64,000 nt of DNA from Zobellia barbeyronii (GTDB lineage: Bacteria > Bacteroidota > Bacteroidia > Flavobacteriales > Flavobacteriaceae): positions 682,001 through 746,000 of the forward strand of contig NZ_JACATN010000002.1 of the NCBI RefSeq assembly GCF_018603515.1, written 5' to 3'. The notes beneath the pieces are model-generated. The model had not been told where the DNA came from. It saw only the letters and a list, made by a program, of their open reading frames with translations, and ran no database searches. Numbering within the stretch: the first letter of the stretch is position 1; each line of letters starts with the position of its first letter. This document shows positions 6,357 to 59,639 of this stretch, one piece after another. A program made the translations under genes and the position numbers.

Positions 6357-7385
6357 TTAGTTAAAACTAAGTTTAGCAATTCTGTTTTTTCCTGCGGCGT
6401 AAGCAATGGAATCATTTAAAAAGCGAATTGTGTAAAATGATTCATCTGATAATTGTTTCCAGGTTACTCCCCTATCGCTTGAGTATGAAATACCTGTAAA
6501 ACCTATAGCCACTAGACCATTTCCATCAGAACCAGGTACAAATTGAATACAGCTTTTGTATTGTGGATTTTGACCATTTGCCATAAGTTCCCAAGTTTTA
6601 CCACCATCTGTAGTTATTGCCTTGTTTGCTGTATTGGTATCTGGCTCCTTAAAATCACCGCCGATTACAACTCCCAAATTTTCATCATAAAAATCAATTG
6701 AGAAAATGCCTTGGGTTTCAACATCACTCTTTAAGGGCGTATTATAAATTTGCCAGGTTTTCCCTTTATCACCTGAAAAATAAATTCGGCTCTTGTTAGT
6801 GGCTATCCATGTCTTATTACCCAAAACCTTAATATTAGTATTACTAGCGGCAAACGCACCTTCGCCCTCCAAACCTTCTGGTAATCGCGAACACGGCATC
6901 TTTTTCCATGTATTGCCACCATCCCTTGTAATCAAAAGACTCAAACAACCGTTCATGCTATCTCCAACAGCAATACCTTCTGCATCGTTCCAGAAAGTCA
7001 TAGCGTCATAGAAAACACTTTCGTCTTCTTCCTTATAGACCAATTGCATACGTCCGTTTTCACCCGTTTTGTATAACAAGGCCGGGTTTGCTACGGATAG
7101 CATAAAAAAATCTGTTGATGTATGGGCTATGGAACGGAATTCAGGAATGGTAGTATGGTACTTTTCTATACTCTCCCTTACTTTTCCGGTTGGAATATGT
7201 ACACTTCCAAATACGCCATTACTACCTGCGTAACCCAAGCTATTTCCCATAATTTCAATAGCTCTAATGCTCACTGAATCTTCGTAAACAATCTCTACTT
7301 CAACAGATGTAAAGTGTTCATTCTTTGGTTTTTCGGAGCAAGAAATGAAGAGAATAACAATCAAAAAGGGAAGTAGAATACGCAT
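6357..7385 (-). CDS. Asp-box (BNR/YCF48-like) beta-propeller lipoprotein
   Basis: I start at the ATG at 7385, giving a 342-aa lipoprotein with lipobox LFISC directly after MRILLPFLIVI; a TTG six codons upstream would lengthen a leader that is already complete. At least four Asp-box repeats are visible: TRDGGNTWKKM, SGDKGKTWQIY, TTDGGKTWELM and SSDRGVTWKQL. These mark a sialidase-fold or YCF48-type propeller. The Asp boxes are structural, and I see no sialidase catalytic set, so no enzyme activity is claimed. It ends 1 base after the sigma operon on the opposite strand and diverges from the rRNA methyltransferase gene. Confidence 0.8.
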   Translation of the reverse strand: MRILLPFLIVILFISCSEKPKNEHFTSVEVEIVYEDSVSIRAIEIMGNSLGYAGSNGVFGSVHIPTGKVRESIEKYHTTIPEFRSIAHTSTDFFMLSVANPALLYKTGENGRMQLVYKEEDESVFYDAMTFWNDAEGIAVGDSMNGCLSLLITRDGGNTWKKMPCSRLPEGLEGEGAFAASNTNIKVLGNKTWIATNKSRIYFSGDKGKTWQIYNTPLKSDVETQGIFSIDFYDENLGVVIGGDFKEPDTNTANKAITTDGGKTWELMANGQNPQYKSCIQFVPGSDGNGLVAIGFTGISYSSDRGVTWKQLSDESFYTIRFLNDSIAYAAGKNRIAKLSFN

Positions 7386-7431
7386 ACGTACAAAGTTTCT
7401 CAAAAATACAGGTAATCCAATAGCAAAACAA

Positions 7432-7439
7432 TACCTTTG
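7432..7439 (+). promoter_or_regulatory. candidate -7 promoter element of the rRNA methyltransferase gene
   Basis: TACCTTTG fits TAnnTTTG and lies 18 bases before the ATG at 7458, giving a very short leader. No convincing -33 box is seen. Confidence 0.5.
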
Positions 7440-7457
7440 CAGCCTTAATTTTTTGTA

Positions 7458-8672
7458 ATGAAGCTACATAGAAACCTGGTTTTCGCAGTAATCGATGCCT
7501 TGAATTTGATTTTTAACGAAGGAGAATATGCCGATAAGGTAGTACAGAAAGTACTAAAATTCGATAAACGCTGGGGTGCTCGTGACCGTGGCTTTATTGC
7601 TGAAACCACCTATGAAATTGTTCGCTATAAGCGATTGTATACTGAAATTGCTGAAGTAAAAGGACCTTTTAGCAGACCTGACCTTTTCAGAATCTGGGCT
7701 GTATGGGCCGTTTTAAAAGGAGTAAGCTTACCTGATTGGAAACAATTAGAACCTACTCCAGAACGTCGTATCAAAGGTAAGTTTGATGAACTTTCAAAAA
7801 TTAGAAAGTTCCGTGAATCTATGCCAGATTGGATAGATGAAATCTGCGAAAAGGCTTTGGGCGAAAAGTTATGGACAGCAGAAAGCGCTGCACTTAACGT
7901 ACAAGCAGAAGTTATTCTTAGAACCAATACTTTAAAAACAACTAAGGAAAAGCTTCGTAAGGCTTTACTTGATGAAGGTATTGTTGTAGAACCTATAAAA
8001 GGGTATGCTAGTGCGCTTAGATTACCAGAGCGAGCCAATGTTTTTGTTACCGAATCATTTAAAAAAGGATATTTTGAAGTTCAAGATGCTTCTTCACAGT
8101 TAGTTGCTGAATATTTAGATGTAAAACCTGGACAACGTGTAGTTGATACTTGCGCTGGCGCAGGAGGAAAATCGCTTCACTTGGCTGCCCTTATGGAAAA
8201 TAAAGGTCAGCTTATTTCTATGGACATCTATGGCAGCAAATTAAAAGAGCTGAAAAGACGCGCTAGAAGAAACGATGCCCACAATATTGAAACTCGCGAA
8301 ATTGACTCTACCAAAGTTTTCAAAAAACTATATGGTAGTGCAGACCGTGTACTTATAGATGCCCCATGTACTGGTATTGGTGTATTACGCAGAAACCCGG
8401 ATAGCAAATGGAAAATGCAACCTGCTTTTCTTGAAAAAATCATGAAAACGCAACATGAAATTATCCGTAGCTACAGTAAAATTGTAAAGCCGGGCGGAAA
8501 AATGGTGTATGCCACCTGTTCTATTCTTCCTCAAGAAAACAATGACCAAATCAAATCTTTTTTATCTTCAGAAGAAGGAAAAGACTTCAGTTTAGTTAAG
8601 GAGAAAAAGATTTATGCATCCAAAAGTGGGTTTGACGGATTCTATATGGCGTTACTAGAAAAGAAAAGCTAG
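7458..8672 (+). CDS. RsmB/NOP2-type rRNA cytosine-C5 methyltransferase
   Basis: An S-adenosylmethionine-dependent methyltransferase of the RsmB/NOL1/NOP2 family that makes 5-methylcytosine in rRNA. An N-terminal NusB-like RNA-binding region is followed by the Rossmann catalytic domain. The SAM loop reads VDTCAGAGGKSLHLAA. Both cysteines of the family are present: motif IV DAPCTGIGVLRR (Cys304) and motif VI YATCSILPQEN (Cys354). At 404 aa it is slightly shorter than E. coli RsmB. The target base cannot be read from sequence; 16S C967-type modification is the usual assignment. Confidence 0.9.
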   Translation: MKLHRNLVFAVIDALNLIFNEGEYADKVVQKVLKFDKRWGARDRGFIAETTYEIVRYKRLYTEIAEVKGPFSRPDLFRIWAVWAVLKGVSLPDWKQLEPTPERRIKGKFDELSKIRKFRESMPDWIDEICEKALGEKLWTAESAALNVQAEVILRTNTLKTTKEKLRKALLDEGIVVEPIKGYASALRLPERANVFVTESFKKGYFEVQDASSQLVAEYLDVKPGQRVVDTCAGAGGKSLHLAALMENKGQLISMDIYGSKLKELKRRARRNDAHNIETREIDSTKVFKKLYGSADRVLIDAPCTGIGVLRRNPDSKWKMQPAFLEKIMKTQHEIIRSYSKIVKPGGKMVYATCSILPQENNDQIKSFLSSEEGKDFSLVKEKKIYASKSGFDGFYMALLEKKS

Positions 8673-52360: not shown

Positions 52361-52368
52361 TATTTTTG
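52361..52368 (+). promoter_or_regulatory. -7-like element just before the start of the copper-like locus
   Basis: TATTTTTG fits TAnnTTTG, but ends only 4 bases before the GTG at 52373. If it is used, the message would be leaderless or the true start would lie further in (ATG 52406 region). No -33 TTG at the right spacing. Confidence 0.35.
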
Positions 52369-52372
52369 CGAT

Positions 52373-52750
52373 GTGAAGCAATGCGTAATACTTTTCGTAG
52401 CATTTATAATGATGGTCAAACCTCTTTGGCCAGTGGCCGAGTATGTGGCCAACTATGACTATATCAAAAATGTATTGTGCGAGAATAAAGATAAACCAAT
52501 GCTTAACTGTGACGGTAAATGTTACCTAGCCAAGCAACTTGCCAAAGAATCAGAAGAGAATAGTAAGAACCCTTTTGGAGAAAAGAGTTCTAAAACAGAA
52601 ATGCAAACTACAGTCTACTTTCAATCAATGTTCAAAATTAATCTTGATTTTATTTTAGATTACGAGAAAACTGAAATTTCCAAAATGGATTCTAATTTAA
52701 AATCCACACTTCTTACTTCAGATATTACCGAGCCACCCGAATTGGCTTAA
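52373..52750 (+). CDS. small exported/membrane protein with conserved Cys motif, copper-locus type
   Basis: A 125-aa protein from GTG at 52373, with an N-terminal hydrophobic segment (CVILFVAFIMMVKPLWPVA). Three cysteines follow: Cys36 in NVLCENKDKP and Cys46/Cys50 in LNCDGKCYLAKQL. The cysteine pattern could hold a metal or form a disulfide. Similar small proteins occur in Flavobacteria near metal-transport genes; no biochemical role is known to me. It is 199 bases upstream of the MbnP-like gene in the same direction, so a role in the same system is likely but inferred. Confidence 0.6.
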   Translation: MKQCVILFVAFIMMVKPLWPVAEYVANYDYIKNVLCENKDKPMLNCDGKCYLAKQLAKESEENSKNPFGEKSSKTEMQTTVYFQSMFKINLDFILDYEKTEISKMDSNLKSTLLTSDITEPPELA

Positions 52751-52949
52751 TACCCTTCTACATCCAAGCTATGTTCTTCTGCGTCTAAAACTGACCAAAA
52801 GCAAGCACTATCATTCAAAAAATAGACATGCTTCCGCCTTATTTAGGCTGTAAGCAACTGTCAACAAACAAAATTCTAAAAAAAACGGATTCAATCTGAC
52901 CTACCAAAAAATAGGCATTCAGTTTATCCATTCTATAAAATATTCACTG

Positions 52950-53753
52950 ATGAAAAATTCTTTATTAGCCCTTTCTGCCGTATTCGCACTTTTTATGACC
53001 TCCTGCTCAAGTGATGACAATGCAAGCGATGATGACTCCCTAACGGGAAGTGGTGAAATCTCTATTAAATATGACAACGGTTTTAACGGTAACGATTTAG
53101 TATTGGGAACTGCAAATGCGGCCAATGCCAACGGAGAAGCTATTACAGTTAACCGTTTTAATTATATCGTAAGCAACTTTAGATTAGTTAACGCGGCGGG
53201 TGAAGAATTCACCTATGCAAAAGATGATAGCTATTTTATCATCAGTCAAGAAACAGAAGATGATCAAATAGCACTTGCAAATATTCCTGCAGGAGAATAC
53301 ACTACCCTAAAATTTGGTGTAGGTATAGACCAAGAAAAATACCTACAAGGTGCTGAAGGCCAAGGTGATTTCTTAACTCTTGCCGAAGACAATAATATGA
53401 TGTGGTCATGGCAAGCGGGTTACAAATTCTTAAACTTTGAAGGTACATTTACCTCTGAAACCATTACCGAAGCTACAGAGTTTAAAATACACATGGGAAG
53501 CCACGGTTCTAGCCTTGATAATTACAAAGAAGTAACATTAGAGCTACCAAATAATGTTGTTGTTGGTGATGGTGTAGATTCTAATATTCACCTAAAAATT
53601 GATGCTTCTAAAATATTAGTAGGTGCTACCAATAGTATTGAGCTAACAGAGAAGCAAGTAATTATGGTAGATGCTGAAAAATCTCCACAGATAGCGGTAA
53701 ATACTTCTGAGATGTTTGTAGTTGACCACATTCATAATGGCGACGGACACTAG
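52950..53753 (+). CDS. MbnP-like lipoprotein (copper-binding partner of a di-haem peroxidase)
   Basis: A 267-aa lipoprotein (lipobox LFMTSC, then an Asp/Ser linker). The MbnP family pattern is clear: ISIKYDNGFNGNDLVLG, NRFNYIVSNFRLVNAAGEEF, NIPAGEYTTLKFGVGID, and MMWSWQAGYKFLNFEG with Trp152 and Trp154. In Methylosinus, MbnP carries a Trp that the partner MbnH oxidises to kynurenine, creating a copper(I) site. Here no methanobactin genes are visible. The MbnH-like gene follows after a hairpin, so the pair is intact. Confidence 0.88.
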   Translation: MKNSLLALSAVFALFMTSCSSDDNASDDDSLTGSGEISIKYDNGFNGNDLVLGTANAANANGEAITVNRFNYIVSNFRLVNAAGEEFTYAKDDSYFIISQETEDDQIALANIPAGEYTTLKFGVGIDQEKYLQGAEGQGDFLTLAEDNNMMWSWQAGYKFLNFEGTFTSETITEATEFKIHMGSHGSSLDNYKEVTLELPNNVVVGDGVDSNIHLKIDASKILVGATNSIELTEKQVIMVDAEKSPQIAVNTSEMFVVDHIHNGDGH

Positions 53754-53771
53754 TCTACGATGCATAAAAAT

Positions 53772-53802
53772 TTATAACCGGCCTTTTTGGGGTCGGTTAT
53801 AA
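53772..53802 (+). repeat. hairpin between the MbnP-like and MbnH-like genes
   Basis: TTATAACCGGCC (53772-53783) pairs with GGTCGGTTATAA (53791-53802) over 12 bp with one G-T wobble and a loop TTTTTGG. No T tract follows, so it is more likely an RNA-stability or processing hairpin, or weak attenuator, than a full terminator. Confidence 0.6.
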
Positions 53803-53815
53803 TAATAAAGTGAAA

Positions 53816-54862
53816 ATGCAAAAAACTAATATTCTTGCTATACTCATAACATTGGTATTATGGTCTTGTAATTCTTCTGATGATGAATACACAGCCATAA
53901 ATGAACCTTTGGAATTTTCCGTACCCTCTAATTTTCCGGAGGCTATTTATGATTTAGAATCAAATCCGCCTACTACAATAGGTTTTGAACTTGGTAAAAA
54001 ACTCTTTTACGATGGTCGCCTGTCTAGTAACGGTTTTATTTCATGTGGTTTTTGCCACGAACAAAAAACGGCATTCACCCACCATGGTCACCAGTTTAGT
54101 CATGGTATAGATGACCTTGAAGGCGTTAGAAATACACCTGCGATACAGAATACAGCTTTTATGAAAGAATTTGCTTGGGATGGAGCAACGAATCATTTGG
54201 ACTTATTCCCTATAATTCCTATTACCAATGAGGTAGAAATGGGTGAAACGGTAAGTAATGTTCTTTCTAAGCTAAAAAGTGATGAAGAATACCAAAAACT
54301 ATTTGCTTCCGCCTTTGAAGATGGAGAAGTGAATAACGAAAACTTTTTTAAAGCACTTGCTCAATTTATGGTAATGATGGTTTCTGCAGATTCTAAATAT
54401 GATAAATATATGCGCCAAGAAGATGGTGGGACTTTTACCGATGAAGAAAAAGAAGGCTTTGCTGTTTTTACCAACAAATGTGCCTCTTGCCATACATCGG
54501 ACCTTTTTACTGATGATGCTTTTAGAAACAATGGTCTAGCTCCAAACCCTTCTCTTAATGACATAGGCCGTGAAGAAGTAAGCGGCGATGCTGCTGACCG
54601 CCACAAGTTTAAAGTACCCAGCTTAAGAAATGTAGAACTTACCGCTCCTTATATGCATGATGGTAGGTTTGGCTCTTTAGAGGCGGTACTTGATTTTTAT
54701 AGTAATTCAGTTACGGACTCTCCTACCCTAGACCCTATTTTAAATCAAGATGGTGAATTGGGTATCGCTTTAACTGAAAATGAAAAAACTACGTTACTGG
54801 CCTTTTTGGGCACATTAACAGATGAAACTTATATAAATGACGAACGATTTGCAGAATATTAG
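53816..54862 (+). CDS. MbnH/MauG-like di-haem cytochrome c peroxidase lipoprotein
   Basis: From ATG 53816 (GTG 53810 is also possible) 348 aa with lipobox LVLWSC. Two haem-binding motifs: Cys77-Gly-Phe-Cys80-His81 and Cys222-Ala-Ser-Cys225-His226, with FKVPSLRNVELTAPYMHDGR near residues 265-285, the signature of the bacterial cytochrome c peroxidase/MauG family. Next to an MbnP-like gene it belongs to the MbnH branch, which uses high-valent iron to modify a Trp of MbnP. Acts in the periplasm. It overlaps the next gene by 26 bases. Confidence 0.92.
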   Translation: MQKTNILAILITLVLWSCNSSDDEYTAINEPLEFSVPSNFPEAIYDLESNPPTTIGFELGKKLFYDGRLSSNGFISCGFCHEQKTAFTHHGHQFSHGIDDLEGVRNTPAIQNTAFMKEFAWDGATNHLDLFPIIPITNEVEMGETVSNVLSKLKSDEEYQKLFASAFEDGEVNNENFFKALAQFMVMMVSADSKYDKYMRQEDGGTFTDEEKEGFAVFTNKCASCHTSDLFTDDAFRNNGLAPNPSLNDIGREEVSGDAADRHKFKVPSLRNVELTAPYMHDGRFGSLEAVLDFYSNSVTDSPTLDPILNQDGELGIALTENEKTTLLAFLGTLTDETYINDERFAEY

Positions 54863-55856
54863 AACCTTGCACAGGTTTATAGCCTTTATAGGTATAAGTC
54901 TCTACACTACGATTTCTTACGGAAACGATAACCCAAAAGCAATTGACCCAACCCCAACCGAATGTGCAAACCATCTTCATTATGAAGGTGAGTATTTTGA
55001 TTTTTGCGATACCTGTGGTTGTGGTAGTAGTGGCGGCAGTATGGGCTACGGCACAGGATTGAACAATAATTTTATAGGCTTGCGATACATAGGTCAAGAG
55101 TACCGTTCTAGAGACGGAATTTTTGCCGACTCGCCCTGGATAACCGAAAATTTCAATACCGTACAGGCTTGGGCCAATATTCCTGTTACTAAAAGGGCTG
55201 TTCTAAATGTTATTGTTCCCTATCAATTTCACAACAGAATATTGCCGGATAATACAGAACAAAACATAAATGGTATAGGCGATATTAGCATACTAGGATA
55301 TTACAACCTACTTAAAGCTAGACCAGATAGCGTGGTAACCATTAAGCCGGAACATTATCTACAATTAGGTGGTGGTATTAAGATGCCTACCGGAAAATAT
55401 GATAAAGACAACAATGAAGGAAGCGTAAACCCCAGTTTTCAATTGGGTAATGGTAGTTGGGATTATATTTTAGCTATGAACTATGGCTTTACCTATAGAA
55501 ATTGGGGTGTGAGCGCTATGGCCAATTATACCATCAAAACTAAGAATCCAAAAAACTATCAATTCGGAAACCAATTGAATTTGGGTATTAATGCCTTTAA
55601 AACGTATTACGTTTCAGACTTTGCCATTACACCAATTATAGGTGTAGCCGAAGAAATATACGGCACCAATCAAGAACTAGGTTTTAATATTGCTGATACC
55701 AAAGGTGATATTTTCTTAGGTAAATTAAGTGTGGAGGCTAGCTACAATAGATACGCGTTAGGCCTAACTGGAATGCTACCCATTAGTCAAAATTTAAATA
55801 GTGACAAAGTAGAACTTCGTAATAGGCTTTCGGTCTATTTGAATATCAATTTATAG
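54837..55856 (+). CDS. outer-membrane barrel-like protein with CDTCGCG motif
   Basis: A 339-aa exported protein overlapping the peroxidase gene. After the leader (ISLYTTISYG) a short region carries FCDTCGCG at residues 56-63 with Cys57, Cys60 and Cys62, then SSGGSMGYGTG; a beta-barrel of about 12 strands follows (VPYQFHNRILPD, YLQLGGGIKMPTGKYDKD, VSAMANYTIKTKNP), ending in RLSVYLNINL. The Cys motif near the plug or mouth is suited to bind copper. Position with MbnP/MbnH genes suggests copper passage across the outer membrane; transport is inferred. Confidence 0.75.
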   Translation: MTNDLQNIRTLHRFIAFIGISLYTTISYGNDNPKAIDPTPTECANHLHYEGEYFDFCDTCGCGSSGGSMGYGTGLNNNFIGLRYIGQEYRSRDGIFADSPWITENFNTVQAWANIPVTKRAVLNVIVPYQFHNRILPDNTEQNINGIGDISILGYYNLLKARPDSVVTIKPEHYLQLGGGIKMPTGKYDKDNNEGSVNPSFQLGNGSWDYILAMNYGFTYRNWGVSAMANYTIKTKNPKNYQFGNQLNLGINAFKTYYVSDFAITPIIGVAEEIYGTNQELGFNIADTKGDIFLGKLSVEASYNRYALGLTGMLPISQNLNSDKVELRNRLSVYLNINL

Positions 55857-59030: not shown

Positions 59031-59639
59031 ATGAAAAATATAAAAATAGGAGCACTAGCGATATTCGCAATGGCTATGGTAAACTGTAAAGAAACCAAAA
59101 AGAACGCAGCCGAAACAACAGATGGCCTGAACAACAGCGTGGACCAAATTGAATCAAACGTTAATGAAATGAAAGACGATGTTATGGGCGAGACCCTTAC
59201 CGTAATGATGACTTCCAAAAGCGATAGTGACATGAACGGCGAGATTACTTTTACCCAAACAGATGGTGAAGTTGATATGAAAGCAGTTTTTACTGGTCTG
59301 GAAGAAGGTTCACATGCTATTCACTTACACGAAAATGCCGATTGCTCATCTGACGACGGTAAATCTGCAGGTGGACATTGGAACCCAACGGACGAGCCTC
59401 ATGGGAAATGGGGAGCAGAAGAAGGATACCATAAAGGTGACATAGGAAACTTCACAGCTGATGCAGATGGTAATGCTACGGTTGAATTTTCTACGGACGA
59501 ATGGTGTATGGATTGTGATGATGAAAATAAGAACATTATAGGTAGATCAGTAATCGTACATAAAGGTCAAGATGATTTTACTTCTCAACCAAGTGGAGAC
59601 GCTGGTTCAAGAATAGGCTGTGCCGGTATTACCAAATAA
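59031..59639 (+). CDS. sodC: Cu/Zn superoxide dismutase lipoprotein
   Basis: A 202-aa lipoprotein (lipobox AMVNC) of the SodC family, which disproportionates superoxide in the periplasm. Metal ligands are recognisable: HLHE in SHAIHLHENADC, AGGHWNP, HGKWG, GYHKGD and the last His in VIVHKGQDDF; the disulfide pair is in NADC and RIGCAG. A coiled-coil-like linker follows the lipid anchor (NNSVDQIESNVNEMKDDV). Unusual is an extra Cys pair in EWCMDCDDENK, absent in E. coli SodC, which may bind a metal. Confidence 0.92.
   Translation: MKNIKIGALAIFAMAMVNCKETKKNAAETTDGLNNSVDQIESNVNEMKDDVMGETLTVMMTSKSDSDMNGEITFTQTDGEVDMKAVFTGLEEGSHAIHLHENADCSSDDGKSAGGHWNPTDEPHGKWGAEEGYHKGDIGNFTADADGNATVEFSTDEWCMDCDDENKNIIGRSVIVHKGQDDFTSQPSGDAGSRIGCAGITK

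Follow-up and report, generated by a model that had tools for sequence, protein, structure and literature searches.

The gene set described here occupies positions 52373–55856 of a 64,000-nucleotide (nt) stretch of Zobellia barbeyronii DNA (assembly GCF_018603515.1, contig NZ_JACATN010000002.1, positions 682,001–746,000, forward strand); the whole stretch is called the window. Open reading frame (ORF) calls place four genes on the + strand in the order S, P, H and barrel, coding for a small leader protein, an MbnP-like lipoprotein, an MbnH-like di-haem protein and a predicted outer-membrane barrel. An earlier note on this DNA had named these four genes and their motifs, and all lie where it placed them, on that strand. 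It had called S a small membrane protein with C-x9-C-x3-C; the motif is present, and the membrane part is a hydrophobic N-terminus judged by eye. The features are as follows.

52361..52368, + strand: TATTTTTG, match to a −7 element of the TAnnTTTG type, 4 nt 5′ of the S start codon
52373..52750, + strand: S, small leader protein of 125 amino acids (aa) with a GTG start, a hydrophobic N-terminus, C-x9-C-x3-C and a C-terminal Pro-Pro (PP)
52478..52522, + strand: S residues 36–50, CENKDKPMLNCDGKC, putative metal-binding motif (C36-x9-C46-x3-C50), with C36, C46, G48 and C50 invariant
52733..52738, + strand: Pro121-Pro122 of S, putative translation-arrest motif, 70 residues past the third Cys and 3 from the end
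52751..52949, + strand: 199-nt gap between S and the MbnP gene, candidate regulatory region, in which no intrinsic-terminator-like site was found
52950..53753, + strand: P, MbnP-like lipoprotein (PF20243), assigned by Pfam and fold model
53004..53021, + strand: lipobox Cys19 and SSDDN of P, resembling published lipoprotein export signals (lipobox pattern)
53403..53411, + strand: W152-S-W154 of P (within WSWQAGYKF), aligned with the WxW of Methylosinus trichosporium MbnP
53727..53738, + strand: C-terminal HIHN (HxH) of P, a mark of barrel-linked MbnPs (tail counts, tree)
53810..54862, + strand: H, MbnH-like di-haem peroxidase-family lipoprotein with C-NSSDDE at its N-terminus, CGFCH and CASCH (Pfam, NCBIfam)
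54837..55856, + strand: predicted outer-membrane barrel of FapF/COG4313-type fold (fold model), sharing 26 nt with H
55005..55025, + strand: CDTCGCG, barrel residues 57–63, an instance of the family motif CDxC[GS]C near the N-terminus of the mature protein (family alignment)

P scores 156.1 bits against the Pfam family MbnP (PF20243, E = 1.3e-45), above the gathering cut-off of 27 bits. Its AlphaFold model has a mean predicted local distance difference test score (pLDDT) of 86.9, and a fold search with this model returns six Protein Data Bank (PDB) matches with E ≤0.001, all of them chains of 7l6g, the M. trichosporium MbnP, at a template modelling (TM) score of about 0.5 and 13–15% identity in the fold alignment. 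In a profile of 28 relatives, the WxW of P aligns with that of 7l6g, and His181 is invariant (28/28 aligned MbnPs). Against the MbnP equivalog TIGR04052, P reaches 55 bits, short of the cut-off of 140, and the four-Cys motif of that model is absent from P, whose sole Cys is that of the lipobox. H matches Pfam CCP_MauG (E = 9.9e-52); its best NCBIfam is the ‘MbnH family di-heme enzyme’ TIGR04039 (220.1 bits, under the cut-off of 362.85). Two CxxCH motifs are found in the H of the window and in 34 of the 35 H proteins of the family set. The solved structure closest to H by sequence is 6e1c, ‘Di-heme enzyme’, which we take to be MbnH, said to be the subject of a 2019 study. According to what is reported of a 2021 study of the MbnP kynurenine, copper binding by M. 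trichosporium MbnP depends on MbnH oxidising a Trp to kynurenine. The window pair shares with the M. trichosporium pair the adjoining genes, the MbnP fold, the WxW and the two CxxCH. It differs in the single Cys of P, in the sub-cut-off TIGR04052 and TIGR04039 scores, and in being a pair of lipoproteins with surface-signal-like N-termini, an HxH tail and a barrel partner. That MbnP and MbnH stand here outside a methanobactin operon, as the earlier note pointed out, agrees with what was already known of their occurrence beyond methanobactin makers (PMC3621798). Six further loci (L103–L105 and L107–L109) hold a separate MbnP–MbnH lineage in one conserved neighbourhood with neither S nor barrel; the WxW is absent in four of the six.

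The barrel model has about 12 strands and a mean pLDDT of 70. Foldseek ranks FapF (5o68, E = 3.7e-10) and a COG4313 channel (4rl8, E = 6.8e-9) at the top, with TM scores of about 0.5–0.57 on the query length, which supports the fold class and not the details. The window protein shares the barrel fold of these channels (PF13557) and is set apart by the N-terminal CDxC[GS]C, the linkage to MbnP and the lack of any Pfam or NCBIfam family above cut-off; PF13557 is matched by 2 of 17 members of the barrel family, the window protein not among them. CDxC[GS]C is kept in 17/17 aligned barrels and in each of the 79 barrels that the named loci yielded (see below). Proteins of L099, L129 and L130, which joined the family through weak blastp links and have no CDxC[GS]C, were excluded. 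Barrels of the 12-stranded FapF/COG4313 type have both termini in the periplasm. The Cys cluster should therefore face the periplasm, and the copper-binding entry that the earlier note saw in CDTCGCG is unlikely; residues 19–74 of the model, which include it, have pLDDT <50.

Linkage was counted in a sample of 60 relatives, in a phylum sample of 296 Bacteroidota genomes and in a set of named loci, the best 80 of 493, chosen on the barrel alone. A barrel match occurs in 20 of the 60 relatives and an MbnP match in 34; for the 296 genomes, the figures are 60 with barrel, 77 with MbnP and 120 with S. The exact order S–P–H–barrel recurs in 71 of the 80 named loci, and since these were picked by barrel alone, the set is more than a chance assembly. 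The ORF filter yielded no barrel in the 80th locus, hence 79 barrels were counted: each has an MbnP gene on its own strand, upstream by at most four genes, and S is present with 75. In the phylum sample, a gene was called ‘near’ if it was on the same strand and no more than 4 kb away. By that measure, 22/24 barrel matches above 150 bits have MbnP nearby, and 23/24 have S. The counts become 6/9 and 7/9 at 75–150 bits, 5/15 and 3/15 at 50–75 bits, and 0/13 and 2/13 below 50 bits. Matches under 75 bits were dropped as family members. The barrel family is tightly tied to MbnP. S behaves differently, lying near MbnP in 51 and near the barrel in 36 of the best-scoring 150 listed S genes of the same genomes, so it does not belong to a single device as a fourth member, and we rejected it as an obligate component of an MbnP/MbnH/barrel machine. 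The earlier note had proposed a four-gene copper device and a neighbourhood survey to check it; the copper theme and the constancy of barrel with MbnP hold up, and the inclusion of S does not.

The C-terminal tail of MbnP tends to vary with the presence of the barrel. HxH within the last 45 residues, typically as DHVHN, is found in 92 of 94 barrel-linked MbnPs versus 0/23 unlinked ones, and in none of the seven MbnPs of S–receptor–MbnP–MbnH operons. The group tallied as ‘with receptor or S’ (n = 12) contains three barrel loci with HxH (L261, L303 and L344) and two L305 rows, doubtful MbnPs from a barrel locus, leaving seven truly barrel-less members. In a quick MbnP tree, built with the last 25 residues excluded and with rows <200 aa, the L305 rows and near-copies removed, four independent contrasts were available: HxH and barrel shift jointly in three of them, and one is uninformative. 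The link between HxH and barrel is thus suggestive, and it could reflect few events.

The residues that follow the lipobox Cys are SSDDN in MbnP and NSSDDE in MbnH; surface lipoprotein export signals of SDDFE in F. johnsoniae and SDDDD in B. fragilis have been published (PMC5080379). Lipoboxes were found with a home-made pattern, and a stretch was called acidic if positions +3 to +7 (Cys = +1) held at least two acidic residues. By this measure, 82/85 lipoboxes of barrel-linked MbnPs and 73/80 of barrel-linked MbnHs are acidic, versus 55/208 comparison lipoboxes of other proteins in the same loci; among other MbnHs, the count is 8/17. MbnP and MbnH are thus predicted to be surface exposed, and with Bacteroidota surface-lipoprotein-like signals on both, copper capture may take place at the cell surface.

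Neither Pfam nor NCBIfam has a family that S matches above cut-off. Grouping by blastp gave a first set of 39 S proteins, and members outside it were found with a profile containing the PP, which introduces a mild bias. In the first set, the sole invariant residues are C, C, G, C and PP (39/39). Of 185 distinct S proteins, 184 have the PP 62–72 residues past the third Cys (mean 67.0, standard deviation 2.27), the exception being a 74-residue ORF that stops short of the linker. The tail after PP is 1–8 residues long in 183/184 and 17 in the remaining one; among the 184, PP is preceded by H in 96, by R in 33 and by K in 18. Among eight aligned loci, the PP codons differ synonymously. Other ORFs of the same loci have a PP within their last nine residues in 7 of 752 cases, and in 0/113 of those of 90–160 aa. 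Across seven congeners, the ratio of nonsynonymous to synonymous polymorphism (pN/pS) of S is 0.13 for the N-terminus, 0.07 for the Cys motif, 0.31 for the linker and 0.26 for the last seven residues; MbnP and the barrel, for comparison, have 0.13 and 0.11. Judged on sequence, this anatomy of Cys motif, unconserved linker and near-terminal PP is that of CruR and CutF, the copper-sensing proteins encoded by upstream ORFs (uORFs).

CruR of Bordetella pertussis (DUF2946, PF11162) has CXXC and RAPP 45 residues apart, with RAPP three residues from the end, and a gap of 162 bp follows the gene (PMC9426467); its arrest has been demonstrated in vitro (PMC12992588). Like CruR, S is a first gene with an N-terminal hydrophobic segment, a Cys motif and a near-terminal Pro-Pro at fixed spacing, and it leads copper-import-like operons, with a long stretch (199 nt here) before the next gene. 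Unlike CruR, it has C-x9-C-x3-C and not CXXC, [HRK]PP and not RAPP, and a spacing of 62–72 and not 45. No family kinship is detectable: we rejected the membership of S in DUF2946 and in HYC_CC_PP (NF047658), with 0/39 proteins matching either model (DUF2946 at E up to 1). CruR control combines copper-relieved translation arrest with Rho-dependent termination, which could hold for S by analogy. CutF-like proteins, after CutF of Rhodobacter capsulatus, are exported proteins of <150 aa with a metal motif and a near-terminal PP that lead metal genes; S resembles them with 125 aa, PP 3 from the end, a putative metal motif and the 199-nt gap, and is probably exported too. The CutF authors argue that 45 residues reach the periplasmic vestibule, and their survey of 29 sequence clusters already reports many CutF-like proteins in Bacteroidota (PMC9973294). 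In the CutF operon, copper switches expression on, via a stem-loop that masks the Shine–Dalgarno sequence, which differs from what we propose for S below.

HYC_CC_PP proteins are a second Bacteroidota family with a hydrophobic N-terminus and a PP that keeps a constant distance from a Cys motif. Their motifs differ from those of S: in 16 of the 17 proteins parsed (of 30 loci; L349–L376, L143 and L144), PP lies 15 residues from the end, and the Cys pair about 49–58 residues earlier. One copy, in the window's genome, precedes a CusA-like protein of the resistance–nodulation–division (RND) type, judged by eye. HYC_CC_PP proteins may be nascent-chain metal sensors too, perhaps for efflux operons.

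S is a leader gene common to several copper-import-like operons. In the 39 first-set loci, the gene after S encodes MbnP (15 loci), a TonB-dependent receptor (8), a YtkA-like lipoprotein (5), a barrel (3, of which two are of PF13557 type) or another protein (8); a second set, picked mostly for S without MbnP, shows the same spread of partners. TIGR01778 (TonB-copper) is the best family for five of six S-linked receptors, all five below the curated cut-off, and the sixth (L142) is siderophore-like. One S-linked receptor searched against the PDB gave six matches, all OprC, with its C-x3-M and H-I-M (HxM) aligned; OprC binds copper via CxxxM-HxM (PMC8610252). Receptors of this OprC/NosA type are thus alternative partners of S elsewhere and have no counterpart in the window operon; a second S of the window's own genome precedes an OprC-like receptor (L135). 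S is followed by a receptor and a PepSY_TM gene in L208, the same order as in the Bordetella cruR operon, and the S operon of L237 contains SCO1. Four loci (L106, L248, L249 and L250) have S, YtkA, receptor, MbnP and MbnH in one run of genes. The leader itself is exchanged in two single cases. In one genome with no S match (G298; L348, match at 1501), a DUF2946/CruR-family protein ending RGPPGLLA lies 142 nt before MbnP, which is followed by MbnH; DUF2946 is rare in Bacteroidota (8/296 genomes, 5 above cut-off). In another (G042), a HYC_CC_PP protein is ahead of MbnP, with a 70-aa ORF in between. Separately, in L126–L128, S is followed by a SusC-like receptor of about 1047 aa. A further S-headed barrel type (L129 at 7192–8226, L130, L206 and L237) is PF13557-like with a Met/His-rich N-terminus (RPDGHAPISVM) and may be a further copper channel.

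The sequence TAnnTTTG, which we take to be the Bacteroidota −7 promoter consensus, stands directly 5′ of 60 of 93 S genes; among 277 control windows, 19 have it. This agrees with a transcript that opens with S. In 34 of these 60, by manual count, the first in-frame start codon is 4–9 nt past the element, a distance so short that S may have a nearly leaderless mRNA. No intrinsic terminator was found in the gap between S and mbnP, the scanned stretch as a whole giving 5 terminator-like sites versus 2.6 expected. A conserved RNA element in the gap was also considered and rejected: eight aligned loci diverge, and it is for one sequence that 52692–52980 folds at z −3.22.

The reading we favour, with a probability of roughly 0.55, is that this is a copper-acquisition operon of a Zobellia-type flavobacterium under a nascent-peptide sensor, S, of the CruR/CutF kind. 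S, P, H and the barrel would form one transcript starting at S. MbnP would be an outer-membrane lipoprotein, probably at the cell surface, that binds copper once MbnH has oxidised W152 to kynurenine. The FapF/COG4313-type channel would pass the copper, its N-terminal CDxCGC lying in the periplasm, and the HxH tail of MbnP would be the likely site of contact with, or hand-over to, the channel. We infer channel function, copper transport, HxH hand-over and kynurenine formation in this operon. S itself would carry no copper and would act as a nascent-peptide sensor. With the ribosome at the Pro-Pro, C-x9-C-x3-C would be some 67 residues away, roughly the length of the ribosome tunnel plus SecYEG, which would set the Cys motif beyond SecYEG, where the emerging motif could read copper. 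Copper-free S would stall, and the operon would be expressed; copper-bound S would free the ribosome, and expression would end in the gap before mbnP. Translation arrest, copper sensing by S and the sign of the response are what we infer by analogy with CruR.

Several observations weigh against this reading. Most S proteins carry [HRK]PP and not RAPP, and RAPP/RGPP uORFs of copper-related genes are reported absent in Bacteroidota (PMC12992588). The Pro motif of CutF alone did not stall (PMC9973294). S has no match to the DUF2946 or HYC_CC_PP models, and its last seven residues, as a group, show no stronger constraint than the linker does, just PP being fixed. The barrel Cys motif falls in the low-confidence part of the model. 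Below 75 bits, MbnP is near just 5 of 28 barrel matches, and four S–barrel loci (L096, L254, L255 and L256) have no MbnP or MbnH adjoining the barrel; in some loci of this kind a small His-rich lipoprotein comes next, matching DUF4625 in L096, with no such match in L254 and L255. The acidic stretch is common in MbnPs without barrel as well (18/27), and the HxH/barrel association has a sign-test p of 0.25 over the four independent contrasts.

It is also conceivable, though we consider it unlikely, that S works as a copper chaperone anchored in the membrane, or as an accessory subunit of the outer-membrane importer, with PP as a binding motif and the operon regulated elsewhere. Such a protein would supply the copper route that MbnP and H require, and it would suit the purifying selection across all of S and the ever-kept Cys motif, with the low-level linker constraint (pN/pS 0.31) that of a folded domain. 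A nascent-chain ruler fits better with four other features: the rigid Cys–PP distance over an unconserved linker, the PP 1–8 residues from the end in 183/184, the first position of S in operons of different transporters, and the substitution by DUF2946 in one genome.

Rather improbable is a copper-tolerance or storage device, in which copper would be sequestered by MbnP at the surface and exported or vented through the barrel, with no importer. S heads receptors of the OprC type, the prototype of which imports copper (PMC8610252), and the single S–YtkA–receptor–MbnP–MbnH run occurs in four loci. CutF-type leaders do precede efflux genes too (PMC9973294), and the sibling-looking HYC_CC_PP stands before the RND-type gene of the window's genome; the efflux leader is, however, HYC_CC_PP, and S before efflux was not seen in the loci examined. 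That there is no copper system at all, the di-haem enzyme modifying the MbnP Trp for another purpose and the barrel being a general porin carried along, is very hard to believe given the conserved WxW context, the invariant His181, the HxH tails, the Cys-rich nature of the barrel and the OprC-type receptors that S heads elsewhere, for all that P has just 13–15% fold-alignment identity to characterised MbnP and that copper data on Bacteroidota members were not found in the literature searched.

Beyond this operon, the favoured reading extends tentatively, and with less confidence, to a phylum-wide family of Bacteroidota nascent-peptide copper sensors with no Pfam or NCBIfam model. With a ruler of about 67 residues (tunnel plus SecYEG), they would read periplasmic copper and govern interchangeable outer-membrane importers, one of them a Sus-like surface MbnP/MbnH feeding a Cys-tailed FapF-type channel. 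The earlier note's ‘undescribed system’ is too strong, since MbnPH-like genes have already been reported in CruR-uORF-headed operons (PMC9426467). What looks new beside the known copper pair is the channel pairing and the leader family; no published account of the barrel family, the HxH tail or the S family was found in the open PMC literature. The novelty of S is limited by the many CutF-like proteins already reported in Bacteroidota, of which it may be one. Bacteroidota copper import is nearly unexplored in the open PMC literature searched, and the S family, matched in 120 of the 296 sampled genomes, can serve as a simple marker by which to find copper-import operons in genomes; it also provides a case of nascent-chain metal sensing beyond Proteobacteria that can be tested directly. 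For MbnP and MbnH, long called mysterious partners, the barrel and the HxH tail suggest an outer-membrane route and a testable site of action.

Two observations concern the surroundings of the operon. A Cu/Zn superoxide dismutase lipoprotein is encoded about 3 kb downstream in the window (59031–59639) and occupies the same place in congeners. In one congener (G001; L091, 6497–7014), a deletion has taken out S, MbnP and MbnH along with the first half of the barrel, both neighbours being intact, and the barrel is left as pieces only, covering residues 166–339.

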